A stretch of 64,000 nt of DNA from an uncultured Granulosicoccaceae bacterium (GTDB lineage Bacteria; Pseudomonadota; Gammaproteobacteria; Granulosicoccales; Granulosicoccaceae): positions 1 to 64,000 of the forward strand of contig CALKXD010000007.1 in assembly GCA_938003855.1 (NCBI GenBank). The letters are read 5' to 3'. The position numbers and the translations under genes are program-made. Below the pieces are notes generated by a model. It saw only the letters and a program-made list of their open reading frames with translations, ran no database searches and had not been told where the DNA came from. Positions 1,640 to 33,079 of this stretch are shown here, piece after piece; positions within the stretch are counted from its first letter, which is position 1; every line of letters starts with the position of its first letter.

Positions 1640-3025
1640 ATGATTATATCTGTTGCCAATTTAATACCGCGAGCGGTACTTGTATTGTTGATGGTACACA
1701 CTTCAATATTTGCGACTGCGGCACAGGCCGTCGATTCGAAGCCGCTGCCCGACTATGTTATCGAGCGCTTTGGTGAACCCCCGGTCATCCCGCAGGGGGC
1801 CTTTAGCAACGAGGTACGTGGCGCTGTGCAGACGCTGTTTGTTGACAGTATGCGCTCATCCAGTTGGGGACCTGATCAAACTATCGCGTTATCTGTCATC
1901 GCCGGGTCGGAGGATCCACGTCTGGCGTGGCTGCTCAGCGACCTGATGCGGTTTGTCACTGACCGGGAACTCGCTGGTGCATTAGCGAACACTGCTTTTA
2001 AACTGCTCGATATAGAGTTTGAGCAAAGTGATTACTGGCGTCAGGTTACCAACCATCTTATGGCCTGGGATATCCCCGCGCCACCCGACTATCTATCGGT
2101 CAAGCGTGCAATTTTCACCGCTGCGGTGCCTGGCTGGGATAGCATTTTTGTTGAAGGGGATATCGACTGGCGGCATGTTTCGTGGGGTGGGGTACTCATC
2201 GATGACAGACCATTCGATACAACAGATGACCCTTGCAATTGTATACCTGCTGCCGATAATCCTGCCGTGACCAGTGCGACACAGGCAACGTGGATTAAGG
2301 AAGACGATATTGTTTTTGGTGTTGAGGTAAATGGCGAATATCGTGCTTATCCGCGACGTATCATGGAAGTCAGGGAAATGGTGAATGACACGCTTGGTGG
2401 ACGAGATCTGGGTATTCCGTACTGTACCTTGTGTGGCTCGGCGCAAGCCTATTTTACCGATCAGTTACCCGACGGTATAGACCGCCCGGTGCTTAGAACC
2501 TCGGGTTTATTAATCCGCTCCAACAAGGTTATGTACGACATAAGCAGTCAGTCGGTATTCGATACCTTTCGTGGTACTGCCGTCACCGGTCCGCTGGCGA
2601 AGCGCAACATTAAACTGTCGCAGGCAGGGGTGGTTACCGCCACCTGGGGAGCATGGAAAAAAGCGCATCCGGAAACCACCGTGCTTGCCGAATCACTGGC
2701 GCTGGGTCGTGACTTTGACTTTCGCAATAACCGCGACGCCAATGGTCCGATCTTCCCGGTCGGTGATGTTGATCCCCGGCTGTCAGTGCATGAAGACATC
2801 ATCGGGCTGTTGTCTGCCTCTGGTAAGCCGGTGGCATTTCAGCGCAGTAAAGCGTATCTGGCGCTGAGTAAAGGGGAGAAAATAGAAATTGGAAATATTC
2901 GTCTGGTACTGGATGGCGGTGGCATCAGAGCGCTCGATCGCGAAGGTGCTGATCTGGGGGCGCATCAGGCGTTCTGGTTTGCATGGTCGCAGTTCTATCC
3001 GGATACCTTGCTCTGGCCGCTCTAG
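1640..3025 (+). CDS. DUF3179 domain-containing exported protein
   Basis: Matches the DUF3179 family by its core 'GVEVNGEYRAYP', 'VNDTLGGRDL', 'YCTLCGSA', 'VMYD' and 'TWGAWKKAHPETTVL' segments. The conserved YCxLCG pair of cysteines is reminiscent of metal or thiol chemistry, but the family function is not established. I chose the ATG at 1640 because it gives a clean signal sequence (MIISV...ATAAQA-VD); the frame is open back to a TTG at 1589 without a useful start. The product is about 461 residues, with an extra ~170-residue alpha-helical N-terminal part before the domain. It converges with the TssBC-like gene. Confidence 0.85.
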   Translation: MIISVANLIPRAVLVLLMVHTSIFATAAQAVDSKPLPDYVIERFGEPPVIPQGAFSNEVRGAVQTLFVDSMRSSSWGPDQTIALSVIAGSEDPRLAWLLSDLMRFVTDRELAGALANTAFKLLDIEFEQSDYWRQVTNHLMAWDIPAPPDYLSVKRAIFTAAVPGWDSIFVEGDIDWRHVSWGGVLIDDRPFDTTDDPCNCIPAADNPAVTSATQATWIKEDDIVFGVEVNGEYRAYPRRIMEVREMVNDTLGGRDLGIPYCTLCGSAQAYFTDQLPDGIDRPVLRTSGLLIRSNKVMYDISSQSVFDTFRGTAVTGPLAKRNIKLSQAGVVTATWGAWKKAHPETTVLAESLALGRDFDFRNNRDANGPIFPVGDVDPRLSVHEDIIGLLSASGKPVAFQRSKAYLALSKGEKIEIGNIRLVLDGGGIRALDREGADLGAHQAFWFAWSQFYPDTLLWPL

Positions 3026-3085: not shown

Positions 3086-4573
3086 TCAATCCCACGGCCC
3101 GGCGAGTGGCTTGCCCGGCGATGCCACGGACTGGAATCGAAACACACGCGCAGCATTGCGGTTCTTGTAACTGAGTACAGGCATCACTCCGCGCGATAAT
3201 ATTTCTTCTGCAGATCGATCCGTCAGATTTACCTCGGCAACCGGCATCAACCCGCGTTGCCCGTCGTGTGTCACTGTGACAGCAGGCAGATCAACGATAT
3301 CAGTATGGTCACCTGGCTTCATACGCCATTGTTGTGCACAGTAGGAGGTTGCCAGCAATGCAGCACTGGCGATAGAAGCGGGTCCCCAGAGTAGATCTTC
3401 GTGGTGACCTGTCTCGAATTCCTCGTAGGCAAACGGGCTGATCGGATCGGTCTTAGCGCCGTACGGCATGCGTTGCAGCAAGCGTGCAGAGCACAGACCA
3501 ATCCAGGGCGCGATAGCTGACTCACGTAACTTTTGCCAGTTCGACAATGATGGGTCAGTCGCGGGCCGCCAGTCGTCGGCGTCCGTAGTGGTGGCGAGCG
3601 GTGCATCGCATCCGTACAGTGATGGTGATGCGCATGCCAGCAGCGGGCTGCCAAACTGATTGGTGACGGATGCGAGCCCGGCGATTAACTGTAAGTCTGA
3701 GTGATCGGGCGTGACGGTCAGGTCAGAGGCGACAACAGACCATCTGCCGGCCGCGTCATTGCCTGCCATCAGCTTTGCCGCTGCTGAGGCCATCGGGTCC
3801 TTTGGCGGGTGCTCCAGCATTGCCTGCAGGTTCTCGCGATTGGTATCCCAGATCGCCACCTCGATTCGGCTGTCTAACTCAGCGTTTGAAACCACCGCGT
3901 ACAATGCCCGCCATCGGGCTTCGAGTGCCTGCAGGGCTGGCACATGCAATACCTGGCTCATCAGTGCCGCAATCGAGGCATCTACGCTACGCACCAGGCT
4001 TGCCTGTTGTGGATTTTTGCCAGGCGTGATGTGCGGTGCGACGATGGCGTGAATCAAGCTGTCAAAACCGGATTCAGGTTTTGCCGCCGGTACGTCTTCA
4101 CTGGCAGGCCGACCCAGCAGGCGCTCGATGGTGTCATCGTCGCTTTCACCGGAGCTATGGTCGGTCACTTGTTTCGCTGGTGGGGCGGCCGTGTCCGGCA
4201 GATCTGCCGTCATCTCTGCCGCAGCCTGACTGAAAGTTGCGGGGTTCTGCAGGCGTCGGCGCAGATCGCGCAACTCGCCGAAAGGTGCCAGTTTGTCGAT
4301 CAGCTCGTCGGGGTGAAAGTCATCCAGTGTGAAAGCCTGCACGCGTGTGGCCGTTCCACCGTGTGACGCGACGGTGATAATGGGAGCGATCCGATCCAGC
4401 AGATCATCGAAGTTGTCGATGTCGACGCTGTGCAGGCGTGGCTTGGTGCTGCCGGCAGTGTTCTCACCACTGAAGTCGCCAACGATCAGCAGGCGAAATG
4501 GTTGGTCCGGCTGCCGCGGTTTGCCTGTGGGTTGGAAATCAAAGGAAAACTCCAGCCTGGCTTTGTCTGTCAA
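3086..4573 (-). CDS. Orphan TssB-TssC (VipA-VipB) fusion-like sheath protein
   Basis: The 495-residue protein has two T6SS sheath regions. Residues ~10-120 match the TssB/VipA family (PFRLLIVGDFSG, KPRLHSVDIDNFDDLLDRI, LDDFHPDELIDKLAPF). After a ~55-residue Ala/Asp-rich linker, residues ~175-480 match the TssC/VipB N-terminal domain (LEARWRALY, YGCDAPL after LACASPSLYG, LQRMPYGAKTD, LLWGPASIASA). It stops at 'VFRFQSV', where ordinary TssC proteins continue into their ~110-residue C-terminal sheath domain. The start is TTG with an upstream purine-rich GGATGGAA; the nearby ATG closes after three codons. No other T6SS gene is nearby. Function unknown; a contractile role is doubtful. Confidence 0.8.
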   Translation of the reverse strand: MTDKARLEFSFDFQPTGKPRQPDQPFRLLIVGDFSGENTAGSTKPRLHSVDIDNFDDLLDRIAPIITVASHGGTATRVQAFTLDDFHPDELIDKLAPFGELRDLRRRLQNPATFSQAAAEMTADLPDTAAPPAKQVTDHSSGESDDDTIERLLGRPASEDVPAAKPESGFDSLIHAIVAPHITPGKNPQQASLVRSVDASIAALMSQVLHVPALQALEARWRALYAVVSNAELDSRIEVAIWDTNRENLQAMLEHPPKDPMASAAAKLMAGNDAAGRWSVVASDLTVTPDHSDLQLIAGLASVTNQFGSPLLACASPSLYGCDAPLATTTDADDWRPATDPSLSNWQKLRESAIAPWIGLCSARLLQRMPYGAKTDPISPFAYEEFETGHHEDLLWGPASIASAALLATSYCAQQWRMKPGDHTDIVDLPAVTVTHDGQRGLMPVAEVNLTDRSAEEILSRGVMPVLSYKNRNAARVFRFQSVASPGKPLAGPWD

Positions 4574-4637
4574 GGTTCCATCCTAGGGTTGATTTACCTC
4601 CGTGAACACTAGCACAAAGCCGGTCGCTGTTTTAACG

Positions 4638-30032: not shown

Positions 30033-31160
30033 TCAGTTGCTGGTGTCGACAAAGAATTTTTTTGAGTTCTTTGCATTGCGAAATACCAGTGGTTTGGTGT
30101 CTTTAGTAGTGATGGAACTTTGCGTGATTGCAGCGTCGACGAGGTGGCGATTGGGCGACTTGTCGCAGACAGGATCAGTGGCGGCAGCATCACCGGTCAG
30201 CATAAACGCCTGGCAGCGGCAGCCACCGAAATCTTTTTCTTTCTCGGAGCAGGAACGACAGGGCTCTTGCATCCAGTCGAATCCACGAAATTTTTGAAAA
30301 GCGTCTGAGTGCTTCCAGATGTCACTCATGCTGGTATCTTTAGCATTGGGAAACTCTATGCCCGGAAGTTGCCGTGCCGAGTGACAGGGTAATGCGGTAC
30401 CGTCTGGTGTTACCAGCATAAACAGACTTCCCCAGCCGCTCATACAGGGCTTGGGACGGTTTTCGAAGTAATCCGGTACGACGTAGAAAATTTTCATCGC
30501 GTCGTTTTTGTTTTCGTCCCGAAAACGCGTAATGCAGGCTTCGGCGGACTCGAGCTGATCGCGGGTTGGCATTAGAACATCGCGGTTGATAAATGCCCAG
30601 CCATAGTATTGTGTGGTGGCGAGCTCGACGTAGTCGGCCTCGAGCCGGGTGGCGAGTTCAAGGATATCGTCGACCTGATCGATGTTCTCTCGATGCGTAA
30701 CAAAGCAGAGCACCATCGGGAAGCCGTTGGCTTTCACGGCGCGAGCCATCTCGAGCTTGTGTTCGAAAGAGTCAGTGCCGGCGATCCAGTTGTTAAGCTC
30801 ACTGGAGCTGGCCTGAAAGCTCACCTGGATGTGATCCAGCCCCGCTTCCTTCAGGCCTGCAACTCTGTCAGCGGACATGCCAATGCCAGAGGTAATCAGG
30901 TTGGTGTAGTAGCCGAGTTTGTGTGCCTCTGCAACGATGATTTCTAGATCTTTTCGTACGATCGGCTCACCGCCGGACAGTCCAAGCTGCGCGGCCCCCA
31001 GTTCACGTGCTTCACGTAGAATGCGAATCCAGTGATCGGTGTCGAGCTCAGCGCCGGTGGTGCTGGCAAAGTCGACCGGATTGCTGCAGTAGGGGCATTG
31101 CAGCGGGCACTTATAGGTGAGTTCCGCCAATAGCCATAGAGGTGCGTTGACGTCAGACAT
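30033..31160 (-). CDS. pqqE: PqqA peptide cyclase, radical SAM/SPASM
   Basis: A 375-residue radical SAM enzyme. The 4Fe-4S motif CPLQCPYC gives Cys18, Cys22 and Cys25, 'LSGGEP' is the SAM-binding turn, and the C-terminal SPASM region has the auxiliary-cluster cysteines ('ALPCHSAR', 'CRSCSEKEKDFGGCRCQAF'). PqqE joins Glu and Tyr of the PqqA peptide by a carbon-carbon bond, the first step of PQQ synthesis, while PqqA is held by PqqD. It overlaps pqqD by eight bases. Length and motifs are normal; it is the last pqq gene of the operon. Confidence 0.97.
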   Translation of the reverse strand: MSDVNAPLWLLAELTYKCPLQCPYCSNPVDFASTTGAELDTDHWIRILREARELGAAQLGLSGGEPIVRKDLEIIVAEAHKLGYYTNLITSGIGMSADRVAGLKEAGLDHIQVSFQASSSELNNWIAGTDSFEHKLEMARAVKANGFPMVLCFVTHRENIDQVDDILELATRLEADYVELATTQYYGWAFINRDVLMPTRDQLESAEACITRFRDENKNDAMKIFYVVPDYFENRPKPCMSGWGSLFMLVTPDGTALPCHSARQLPGIEFPNAKDTSMSDIWKHSDAFQKFRGFDWMQEPCRSCSEKEKDFGGCRCQAFMLTGDAAATDPVCDKSPNRHLVDAAITQSSITTKDTKPLVFRNAKNSKKFFVDTSN

Positions 31161-31416
31161 TAAGCCAGCCTTCGGCGCATGAGGTGGTCATGAAGTCGAT
31201 AACATCCTGTCGTAAGTCTGCTTCGGGGAACTTTTTTTCAAGTGTCGCAACAATCTGTTCAATGGTATCAGTACCGTTTATCAGTTCGATGATTGCTGCA
31301 GCACTTTCACTGAGTACTTTCATGCCTTCAGGGTACAGTAATACGTGGCTGTTCTGTGCCGGTTCCCATTGAAAGCGGTAGCCGTTGGCAAGCTTTGGTA
31401 CATCGGTTGATTCCAT
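31153..31416 (-). CDS. pqqD: PqqA-binding chaperone PqqD
   Basis: An 87-residue RiPP-recognition-type protein of PqqD family: 'KLANGYRFQWEPAQNSHVLLYPEGMKVLSESAAAIIELINGTDTIEQIVATL'. It binds the PqqA peptide and presents it to PqqE. Two bases separate it from the pqqC stop and it overlaps pqqE, so translation is coupled. Length is typical. Confidence 0.96.
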   Translation of the reverse strand: MESTDVPKLANGYRFQWEPAQNSHVLLYPEGMKVLSESAAAIIELINGTDTIEQIVATLEKKFPEADLRQDVIDFMTTSCAEGWLNV

Positions 31417-31418
31417 GT

Positions 31419-32168
31419 CTAGTCACTGACCGGTGTTGATGAATTAATATTGAAGTACGGTGGCATCTCTTTTATGTACGCCAGATACATCGCGTCCAGC
31501 ATGCTCCATAGTACGTCGAGCTTAAATTGCAGTATTTGCATTGCGCGATCCTGCTGCTCGCGCGTGGTGAAGTGTTCTAGTGTGATAGACAGTCCGTGTT
31601 CGACATCGCGGTGTGCTTCTTTGATGCGATTTTTAAAATAGTCCAGTCCCTGATTTTCTATCCATGGATATTTGTCCGGCCAACTCGAGATTCGTTGTTT
31701 GTGAATGGTGGGTGCAAACATCTCAGTGAGCGAGGAGCAGGCGGATTCCTGCCAGCTGGCTGTAGCGACAAAGTTCACGTAGGCGTCGACAGCAAAGCGC
31801 ACTCCCGGGAGTACCAGAGACTGATCGATTACCTGTTCGCGTTTAAGTCCGGTGGCTTCTGCCAGCCGTAGCCAGACTTCTATGCCGCCTTCACTGCCGA
31901 CGGTGCCGTCGTGATCAATGATGCGTTGCACCCACTGCTGACGAATCAGGCGATCAGGACAATTCGCCAGGAATGTGGCGTCTTTACGCGGGATGGTAAT
32001 CTGGTAGTAATAGCGATTGGCTACCCAGCCCTGAATCTGTTCTTTTGATAACTCTCCATTGTGCATCATTACCTGAAACGGGTGATGAATGTGATAGCGG
32101 GCACCGAGAGAGCGGAGGTTTTTCTCGAAGAGTTCGGCTGACCAGGCAGTGCTGCGGTTTGTTGTCAT
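31419..32168 (-). CDS. pqqC: Pyrroloquinoline-quinone synthase PqqC
   Basis: A 249-residue helical cofactorless oxidase. Family signatures include '[32 protein letters not shown]', '[12 protein letters not shown]' and 'RIIDHDG' with the His/Arg/Tyr-rich active site. PqqC performs ring closure and the eight-electron oxidation that ends PQQ synthesis. Its ATG overlaps the pqqB stop (ATGA), so it is coupled to pqqB. Full length; no odd features. Confidence 0.97.
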
Positions 32169-33079
32169 AGTACTATCTGCATGCCGTCTTCAGCGACTTC
32201 AATACCGGCGTCCGCCAGGGCGGTGCGTTGACTGGAGTCTTCATCCAGAATCGGGTTGGTGTTATTGATATGGATTAGAATTTTACGGCAGGACAATGGT
32301 TGAAGCTCTTCGATCATACCGCCGCTGCCGGACTGCTGGAGATGGCCCATTTCAGACGCGAGTTTGCTGCCGACACCACGGGTTTGCATTTCTTCATTGG
32401 TCCAGGTAGTTCCATCGACCAGCAGGCAGTCGACGCTGCGCATCACCTCCCGGGTGCGCTCCTGTAAGCCACCGAGACCCGGTGAGTAAAAGACGCTGTG
32501 CCCGCTGCTGGTATCGCGGATGGTAATGGCGATGTTGTCGCCAGGGTGTGGATCATGCCGATGTGGTGAGTACGGCGGGGCTTTGCTGTCGATTACCAGT
32601 GGCCGGAATTCCAGGTCTGTGATGCCGGGGACGGTAAACCAGCTTTCATCGATCGCGATCTCGTGCCAGTCGACGCCGCAGTAGTGCTCAAGCATGGTCA
32701 GCACAGGAAACCCGCTGGTGAGATCGTTGTGTACCATCTGCGTGCAGTAAAGTGGTAGCCGGGTATTGTGTTCCCGCAAACTCAGTAGTCCGGTGGTGTG
32801 ATCGATCTGGCTATCCATCAGCATTACCGCGGTAATGCCGGTATCGCGCAATGAGCGTGCTGGTTGCAGCAACTGTTGCTCGCGTAATTGCTGACCAATG
32901 TCCGGTGAGGCATTCACCAGTAACCAGCAAATACCGTCACTGCTGACGGCTATTGAGGATTGTGTTCGGGGAGTCGTCCGGATTTTACCGGTGCGAGCAC
33001 CGCTGCAGGTTTCGCAGTTGCAGTTCCACTGTGGGTAACCCCCACCGGCAGCAGAACCAAGGACCAGTATTTTTAACAT
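32165..33079 (-). CDS. pqqB: PQQ biosynthesis hydroxylase PqqB
   Basis: A 304-residue metallo-beta-lactamase-fold protein with family segments '[24 protein letters not shown]', 'SSIAVSSDG', '[17 protein letters not shown]' and the C-terminal '[16 protein letters not shown]'. PqqB is an iron-dependent hydroxylase acting on the Glu-Tyr-derived intermediate. The CNCETC zinc site at the N-terminus is intact. It follows pqqA after 98 bases that contain a small hairpin, and overlaps pqqC by four bases. Confidence 0.97.

Follow-up and report, generated by a model that had tools for sequence, protein, structure and literature searches.

A conserved one-chain fusion of TssB and the N-terminal part of TssC as a candidate sheath-interacting accessory of type VI secretion systems

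The stretch of DNA analyzed here (the window) comprises positions 1 to 64,000 of contig CALKXD010000007.1 from an uncultured Granulosicoccaceae bacterium. At 3086..4573 on its minus strand lies a gene for a protein of 495 amino acids (aa) in which TssB (VipA) is joined to the N-terminal domain of TssC (VipB), the proteins of the type VI secretion system (T6SS) sheath. The fusion belongs to a family that is widespread, conserved and, it appears, so far undescribed, and its association with the T6SS is well supported. Very probably it serves the T6SS as an accessory that works in trans alongside the canonical sheath. Direct interaction with that sheath, preferably at its end, has about even prospects, and a role as a sheath-end terminator or cap is a real but lesser possibility.

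The gene begins with TTG, preceded 7 nt upstream by a possible Shine–Dalgarno sequence, AGGA (4581..4584, minus strand), read from the sequence. A Pfam scan of the protein returns two families only, in agreement with the original prediction of a TssB–TssC fusion. The TssB/VipA domain PF05591 covers aa 4–110 (4244..4564, minus strand; E 1e-10, 42.1 bits against a cut-off of 24, starting at profile position 6), and the TssC/VipB N-terminal domain PF05943 covers aa 193–483 (3125..3997, minus strand; E 4.6e-41). The same architecture is found in relatives. A phmmer search against the PDB matches TssC/VipB chains (2e-31) and, more weakly, TssB chains (7e-4). Within the TssB part, an N-terminal strand segment (aa 5–14, ARLEFSFDFQ; 4532..4561, minus strand) aligns with the TssB inter-subunit linker strand RVQIEYDVE, and aa 96–109 form the equivalent of the TssC-binding helix of TssB. 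The segment of TssB that binds TagJ, about 15 residues before the linker strand, is absent in the alignment, where the fusion N-termini start after it. The linker, earlier described as rich in Ala and Asp, is present and encloses a conserved helix (aa 145–154, DDDTIERLLG; 4112..4141, minus strand) that carries the TssC N-terminal, ClpV-binding-like motif.

The C-terminus ends in a conserved tail (aa 484–495, ASPGKPLAGPWD then stop; 3086..3124, minus strand), which replaces the TssC C-terminal domain. PF18945, the Pfam family of that domain, is absent from the fusion and has no match across the whole assembly. Only 60 bp separate the fusion stop from the end of the convergent DUF3179 gene at 3025, and consequently no C-terminal domain is hidden downstream; the claim that the protein is shortened and has lost its interlacing domain is thereby upheld. 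The fusion misses the NCBIfam equivalog cut-offs of TssC (TIGR03355, 139.7 against 271.5 bits) and of TssB (TIGR03358, 38.5 against 97.25 bits). PADLOC returns no match for it, and the PHROGs match is marginal (E 0.017). It resembles a piece of sheath, yet is neither TssB nor TssC by their defining features. An AlphaFold2 model of the fusion, made with 61 relatives, is a confident single fold (predicted local distance difference test score 87.8, predicted template modeling score 0.85). It also supports the TssB/VipA domain, places a helix at aa 145–152 within a low-confidence tether, and finds its best solved-structure matches in TssC/VipB chains of sheath structures. The model suggests that one chain would fold as a TssB/TssC-N unit, in effect the outer portion of a sheath protomer with its two pieces already linked.

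Fusions were searched for in sets of 143 and 369 genomes and in a GTDB contig collection, the last scanned with a closer sequence set after the first alignment proved too diverse. About 95 full-length members were recovered from at least eight phyla, with carriers in the Gamma-, Beta- and Alphaproteobacteria, Acidobacteriota, Thermodesulfobacteriota, Myxococcota, Nitrospirota, Planctomycetota and Gemmatimonadota. Single contigs are labeled Rokubacteria and Anaerolineae, and such contigs from metagenome-assembled genomes (MAGs) may be mis-binned. The nearest named relative of the window's copy belongs to a Granulosicoccus MAG (L106), and about a fifth of the T6SS-bearing gammaproteobacterial genomes sampled carry a fusion. 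PF05943 and PF05591 are present in 62/62 fusions scanned and PF18945 in 0/62, and most members stop at nearly the same position, give or take a few residues, with a tail resembling RFQSxAxPxxxLAGxW. The ratio of non-synonymous to synonymous substitution rates (dN/dS) is 0.105–0.278 in 11 close pairs, which points to purifying selection. In trees of the TssC N-terminal domain (67 fusions, 23 TssC) and of the TssB part (67 fusions, 19 TssB), the fusions lie on one side of a single branch, each time with a Shimodaira–Hasegawa-like approximate likelihood ratio (SH-aLRT) support of 100. Both trees come from quick searches, are unrooted and contain long branches; a single origin of the family is therefore compatible with these sequence data, not proven by them. 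Open frames of 670 aa had been suspected of encoding full-length TssB–TssC fusions; reading the loci revealed separate TssB and TssC. Public records label the fusions "type VI secretion system contractile sheath large subunit". The literature searched contains no description of a natural TssB–TssC fusion, although its coverage is incomplete and this is not proof of novelty.

The genomic surroundings of the relatives were counted by tblastn (counts based on open reading frames, ORFs, run low in GC-rich loci). VgrG lies within 10 kb of the fusion in 45/80 relatives' loci, and VgrG or another T6SS structural gene in 52/80; of these 52 T6SS-marked loci, 12 have a separate TssC within that interval. 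Among cleanly mapped ORFs, 20 VgrG ORFs stand head-to-head with the fusion at 50–670 bp. On Rhodobacterales plasmids, a complete T6SS cluster holds the fusion between clpV and vgrG, together with tssB and tssC. Homologues within full T6SS loci beside a separate intact TssC, which the original prediction had held to speak against its own reading, are therefore found among many relatives, and the fusion is accordingly regarded as a T6SS accessory, not a stand-alone system. At the level of whole genomes, canonical TssC, recognized by PF18945, is present in 15/17 fusion-bearing gammaproteobacterial genomes versus 55/352 others (Fisher p 4e-10, in a test that treats genomes as independent). It is also present in 28/32 further genomes, picked for having no complete T6SS cluster at the fusion locus; the exceptions without PF18945 are draft genomes, where absence is weak evidence. 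The fusion apparently accompanies a normal sheath rather than replacing it. Several further genes recur around these loci. DUF4123 adaptors and PAAR are found near fusion and VgrG loci, and 11 fusion loci, among them L078, L079, L094, L102-L104 and L120, encode close to VgrG/DUF4123 a protein of about 280–300 aa that matches no Pfam family (for example L120:6044-6880). Isolated copies of the fusion (L071, L073, L106, L109, L115) frequently lie no more than about 7 kb from a PpkA-like serine/threonine kinase.

The window's copy had been called an orphan. It is indeed locally isolated: no second T6SS gene lies near it within the window, which begins at base 1 of its contig, so that only 3 kb are visible to the left of the fusion. 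The label fails for the genome, however, where T6SS genes lie on other contigs, and for the family, given the linkage described above. Contig C243 encodes TssA, TagH/FHA, TssJ, TssK, TssL, TssM, TagF, a PP2C phosphatase and a kinase; contig C163 encodes TagJ, TssE, TssF, TssG and ClpV. The idea of an organism lacking a T6SS was rejected on the strength of these two contigs. C243 begins just past the point where tssA ends, C163 just ahead of tagJ, and the genes between tssA and tagJ in relatives are tssB, tssC and hcp. Apart from the fusion, the assembly contains no match to canonical tssB, tssC or hcp. The simplest reading is that these three genes fell into an assembly gap, the alternative being their true deletion from this genome. 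A third contig, C312, carries a VgrG cut by the contig end, and across the three contigs (L023, L055, L161) the T6SS is split at tssB-tssC-hcp and inside vgrG. DUF6931 proteins directly adjoin VgrG both in this genome (L161:8205-8804) and in a Phaeobacter fusion cluster (L166:17922-18548). Among 14 genomes of the genus, the fusion occurs only in that of the window; in one relative (G012), the lactonase-like and DUF3179 neighbors are kept and an unrelated gene occupies the fusion's place. The window's copy is thus patchily present, locally isolated and of uncertain activity.

The linker, for its part, is more than a spacer. Two classes of system have been distinguished: an aliphatic-groove ClpV paired with a TssC helix of the LLDEII type, and a ClpV with Arg6/Asp87 paired with a FASLL-type TssC, usually with TagJ (PMC4239648). 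In the Arg6 class, the TssC helix of P. aeruginosa failed to bind the isolated ClpV N-terminal domain (ClpV-N), and the N-terminal segment of TssB is the one that binds TagJ (PMC4239648). The fusion linker is of the LLDxI(I) type at all aliphatic-groove ClpV loci (7/7) and of the xLLG type at all Arg6 ClpV loci (9/9), so that motif type equals local ClpV class in 16/16 loci with a classified ClpV. Since the division into two types for the most part mirrors two big clades and the loci are not phylogenetically independent, this match is consistent with recognition of the cognate ClpV and is not independent proof of it. Two Rugamonas copies carry GDFASLLG or SDFASLLG, near the TssC1 motif itself. 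In the window's genome, ClpV begins MTEISRANLFGKLN, which places it in the Arg6 class, and the fusion motif is xLLG; TagJ is encoded, although the fusion lacks the TagJ-binding segment. It is an evenly balanced proposition, drawn from these sequences, that the linker helix serves as a handle readable by ClpV. Owing to the missing TagJ segment and the failure of the TssC helix to bind ClpV-N in the Arg6 class, this handle may work differently there. Related motifs also occur outside the linker in some members. A fusion on a Qingshengfaniella plasmid (NZ_CP042263.1, L168:6513-9704) has an N-terminal extension of about 500 aa with 11 acidic LDDLL-type motifs, where shuffled sequences average 0.9 and reach at most 5, and more in its C-terminal tail; similar motifs occur in the shorter C-terminal tails of the Phaeobacter, Eleftheria and G259 fusions.

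A possible mechanism can be proposed from the architecture of the sheath. Its rings are held together by N-terminal strands of TssB and C-terminal strands of TssC, and the linkers of each ring pair with the TssC handshake part of the neighboring ring on the baseplate side (PMC5813253; PMC5924787). The N-terminal domain of TssC is sufficient for TssB binding and self-interacts (PMC3840085). The fusion lacks the C-terminal handshake domain of TssC, which takes and gives ring-linking strands; it keeps the linker strand at the N-terminus of TssB and a ClpV-recognition helix of the TssC type. With the handshake domain missing and the TssB strand and outer domains kept, the fusion could join the end of a sheath and would not accept the next ring. 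It may thus be a sheath-derived accessory, a non-polymerizing mimic of the sheath subunit, that binds the canonical sheath or its subunits without extending the sheath. In the preferred version, it would sit at the end as a cap or chain terminator and limit or stabilize sheath assembly, and ClpV could remove the end-bound fusion. Observed are the architecture, its conservation, the absent domain, the linkage to VgrG and the T6SS, the co-occurrence with canonical TssC and the agreement of linker motif with ClpV class. The fold comes from a predicted model, and what we infer for this protein is its attachment to the sheath, its location at the end, its contact with ClpV and any regulatory effect.

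Several observations weigh against this proposal. The N-terminal strand is weakly conserved in sequence, and the structural model is of a monomer only. The draft genome of the window's copy contains no visible canonical TssB, TssC or Hcp, and its partner sheath is deduced from the gap between contigs and from related genomes; the copy itself is locally alone on a long branch (length 1.34). The assumption of independent genomes behind the Fisher test and the clade structure of the linker motifs belong here as well. In addition, linkage to VgrG fits the spike/baseplate end at least as well as the distal end.

Two serious rivals to a cap at the sheath end are a decoy directed at ClpV and an adaptor at the VgrG end. 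In the former, a soluble sheath mimic would occupy or recruit ClpV through its linker helix, multivalently in some relatives, and would tune sheath recycling outside the sheath. This is rather unlikely: the TssC-type helix is conserved and its type matches the local ClpV, and the LDDLL arrays far exceed the shuffled expectation; however, a short linear motif needs no conservation of both sheath domains for TssB–TssC packing, the arrays are confined to one subclade, and the helix of the Arg6 class did not bind isolated ClpV-N. An adaptor would instead couple a particular VgrG spike or cargo to sheath initiation at the baseplate. VgrG is the closest and most frequent neighbor, often divergent at 50–220 bp, with DUF4123 and PAAR nearby, yet the fusion lacks the gp25-like/handshake domain by which TssE and the sheath connect, and many copies, including that of the window, lie far from any VgrG; such an adaptor is unlikely.

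The remaining alternatives concern the status of the protein as a whole, and the original prediction had raised both. It is highly improbable that the fusion by itself builds a sheath or filament of its own, independent of canonical TssB/TssC, even though TssC N-terminal domains self-interact in two-hybrid tests (PMC3840085) and the assembled genome lacks the canonical pair. The interlocking domain is absent from all 62 members scanned, canonical TssC usually occurs in the same genome, and the missing genes of the window's genome, hcp included, fall exactly between two contig ends. Equally implausible is a decaying remnant of a tssB-tssC pair, which the solitary copy, its absence from the 13 same-genus relatives searched and its long branch might suggest. 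The frame is intact, the full-length members share an end point and low dN/dS (0.1–0.28), and one long supported branch parts the fusions from TssC and TssB. For the family as a whole, these observations contradict decay. The regulator option of the original prediction stays open.

Among known proteins, canonical TssB/VipA and TssC/VipB share with the fusion both domain folds, the packing surfaces, the TssB linker strand and the TssC N-terminal helix. They differ in being two chains, with PF18945 and the TagJ-binding TssB segment, whereas the fusion is one chain without either, in a separate clade. Agrobacterium has a second TssC homologue, TssC40/ImpD (Atu4340), which is non-redundant and needed for secretion (PMC3702570), and which resembles the fusion in being an additional gene of the TssC type alongside the canonical copy. 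Descriptions of Atu4340 mention no fusion to TssB. Genome G099 encodes two full TssC with PF18945 alongside the fusion, which makes the fusion a third kind of gene and its assignment to the ImpD/TssC40 type unlikely. The sheath-end proteins of the TagA/TssA family (PMC6745524) control the sheath end, a job analogous to the one proposed for the fusion; their mark, ImpA_N (PF06812), is absent from the fusion in Pfam, and the two are unrelated in sequence, the fusion being sheath-derived. The sheath initiator TssE/gp25 is, as the fusion may be, a single small accessory unit at a sheath end; it consists of a handshake-like domain, exactly what the fusion lacks.

The immediate neighbors of the gene in the window are of less relevance. 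An HxlR-type regulator gene (PF01638; 4638..5180, minus strand) lies 64 bp upstream on the same strand and is not among the recurrent neighbors in relatives. The convergent DUF3179 gene (PF11376; 1589..3025, plus strand) is outside the system, since it occurs without the fusion in same-genus genomes. Farther away, at 30033-33079, three adjacent minus-strand genes resemble, by eye, pyrroloquinoline quinone (PQQ) synthesis genes (radical S-adenosylmethionine (SAM), PqqC-like and PqqB-like).

The control of sheath length and of the sheath end in T6SSs without TagA is an open question, and a cryo-electron microscopy study of V. cholerae left unclear which proteins form the distal end (PMC5813253). 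A naturally truncated, conserved version of the sheath protomer, encoded next to VgrG, provides a direct and easily tested candidate for such control. At the same time, automatic annotation as a contractile sheath large subunit hides a distinct protein in T6SS gene counts. More tentatively, and with some doubt, the fusion may represent an undescribed class of T6SS component, a one-chain mimic that caps the growing sheath, carries its own handle for release by ClpV and sets length without TagA. If this is true, systems lacking TagA would gain a way to control the length of their sheaths.
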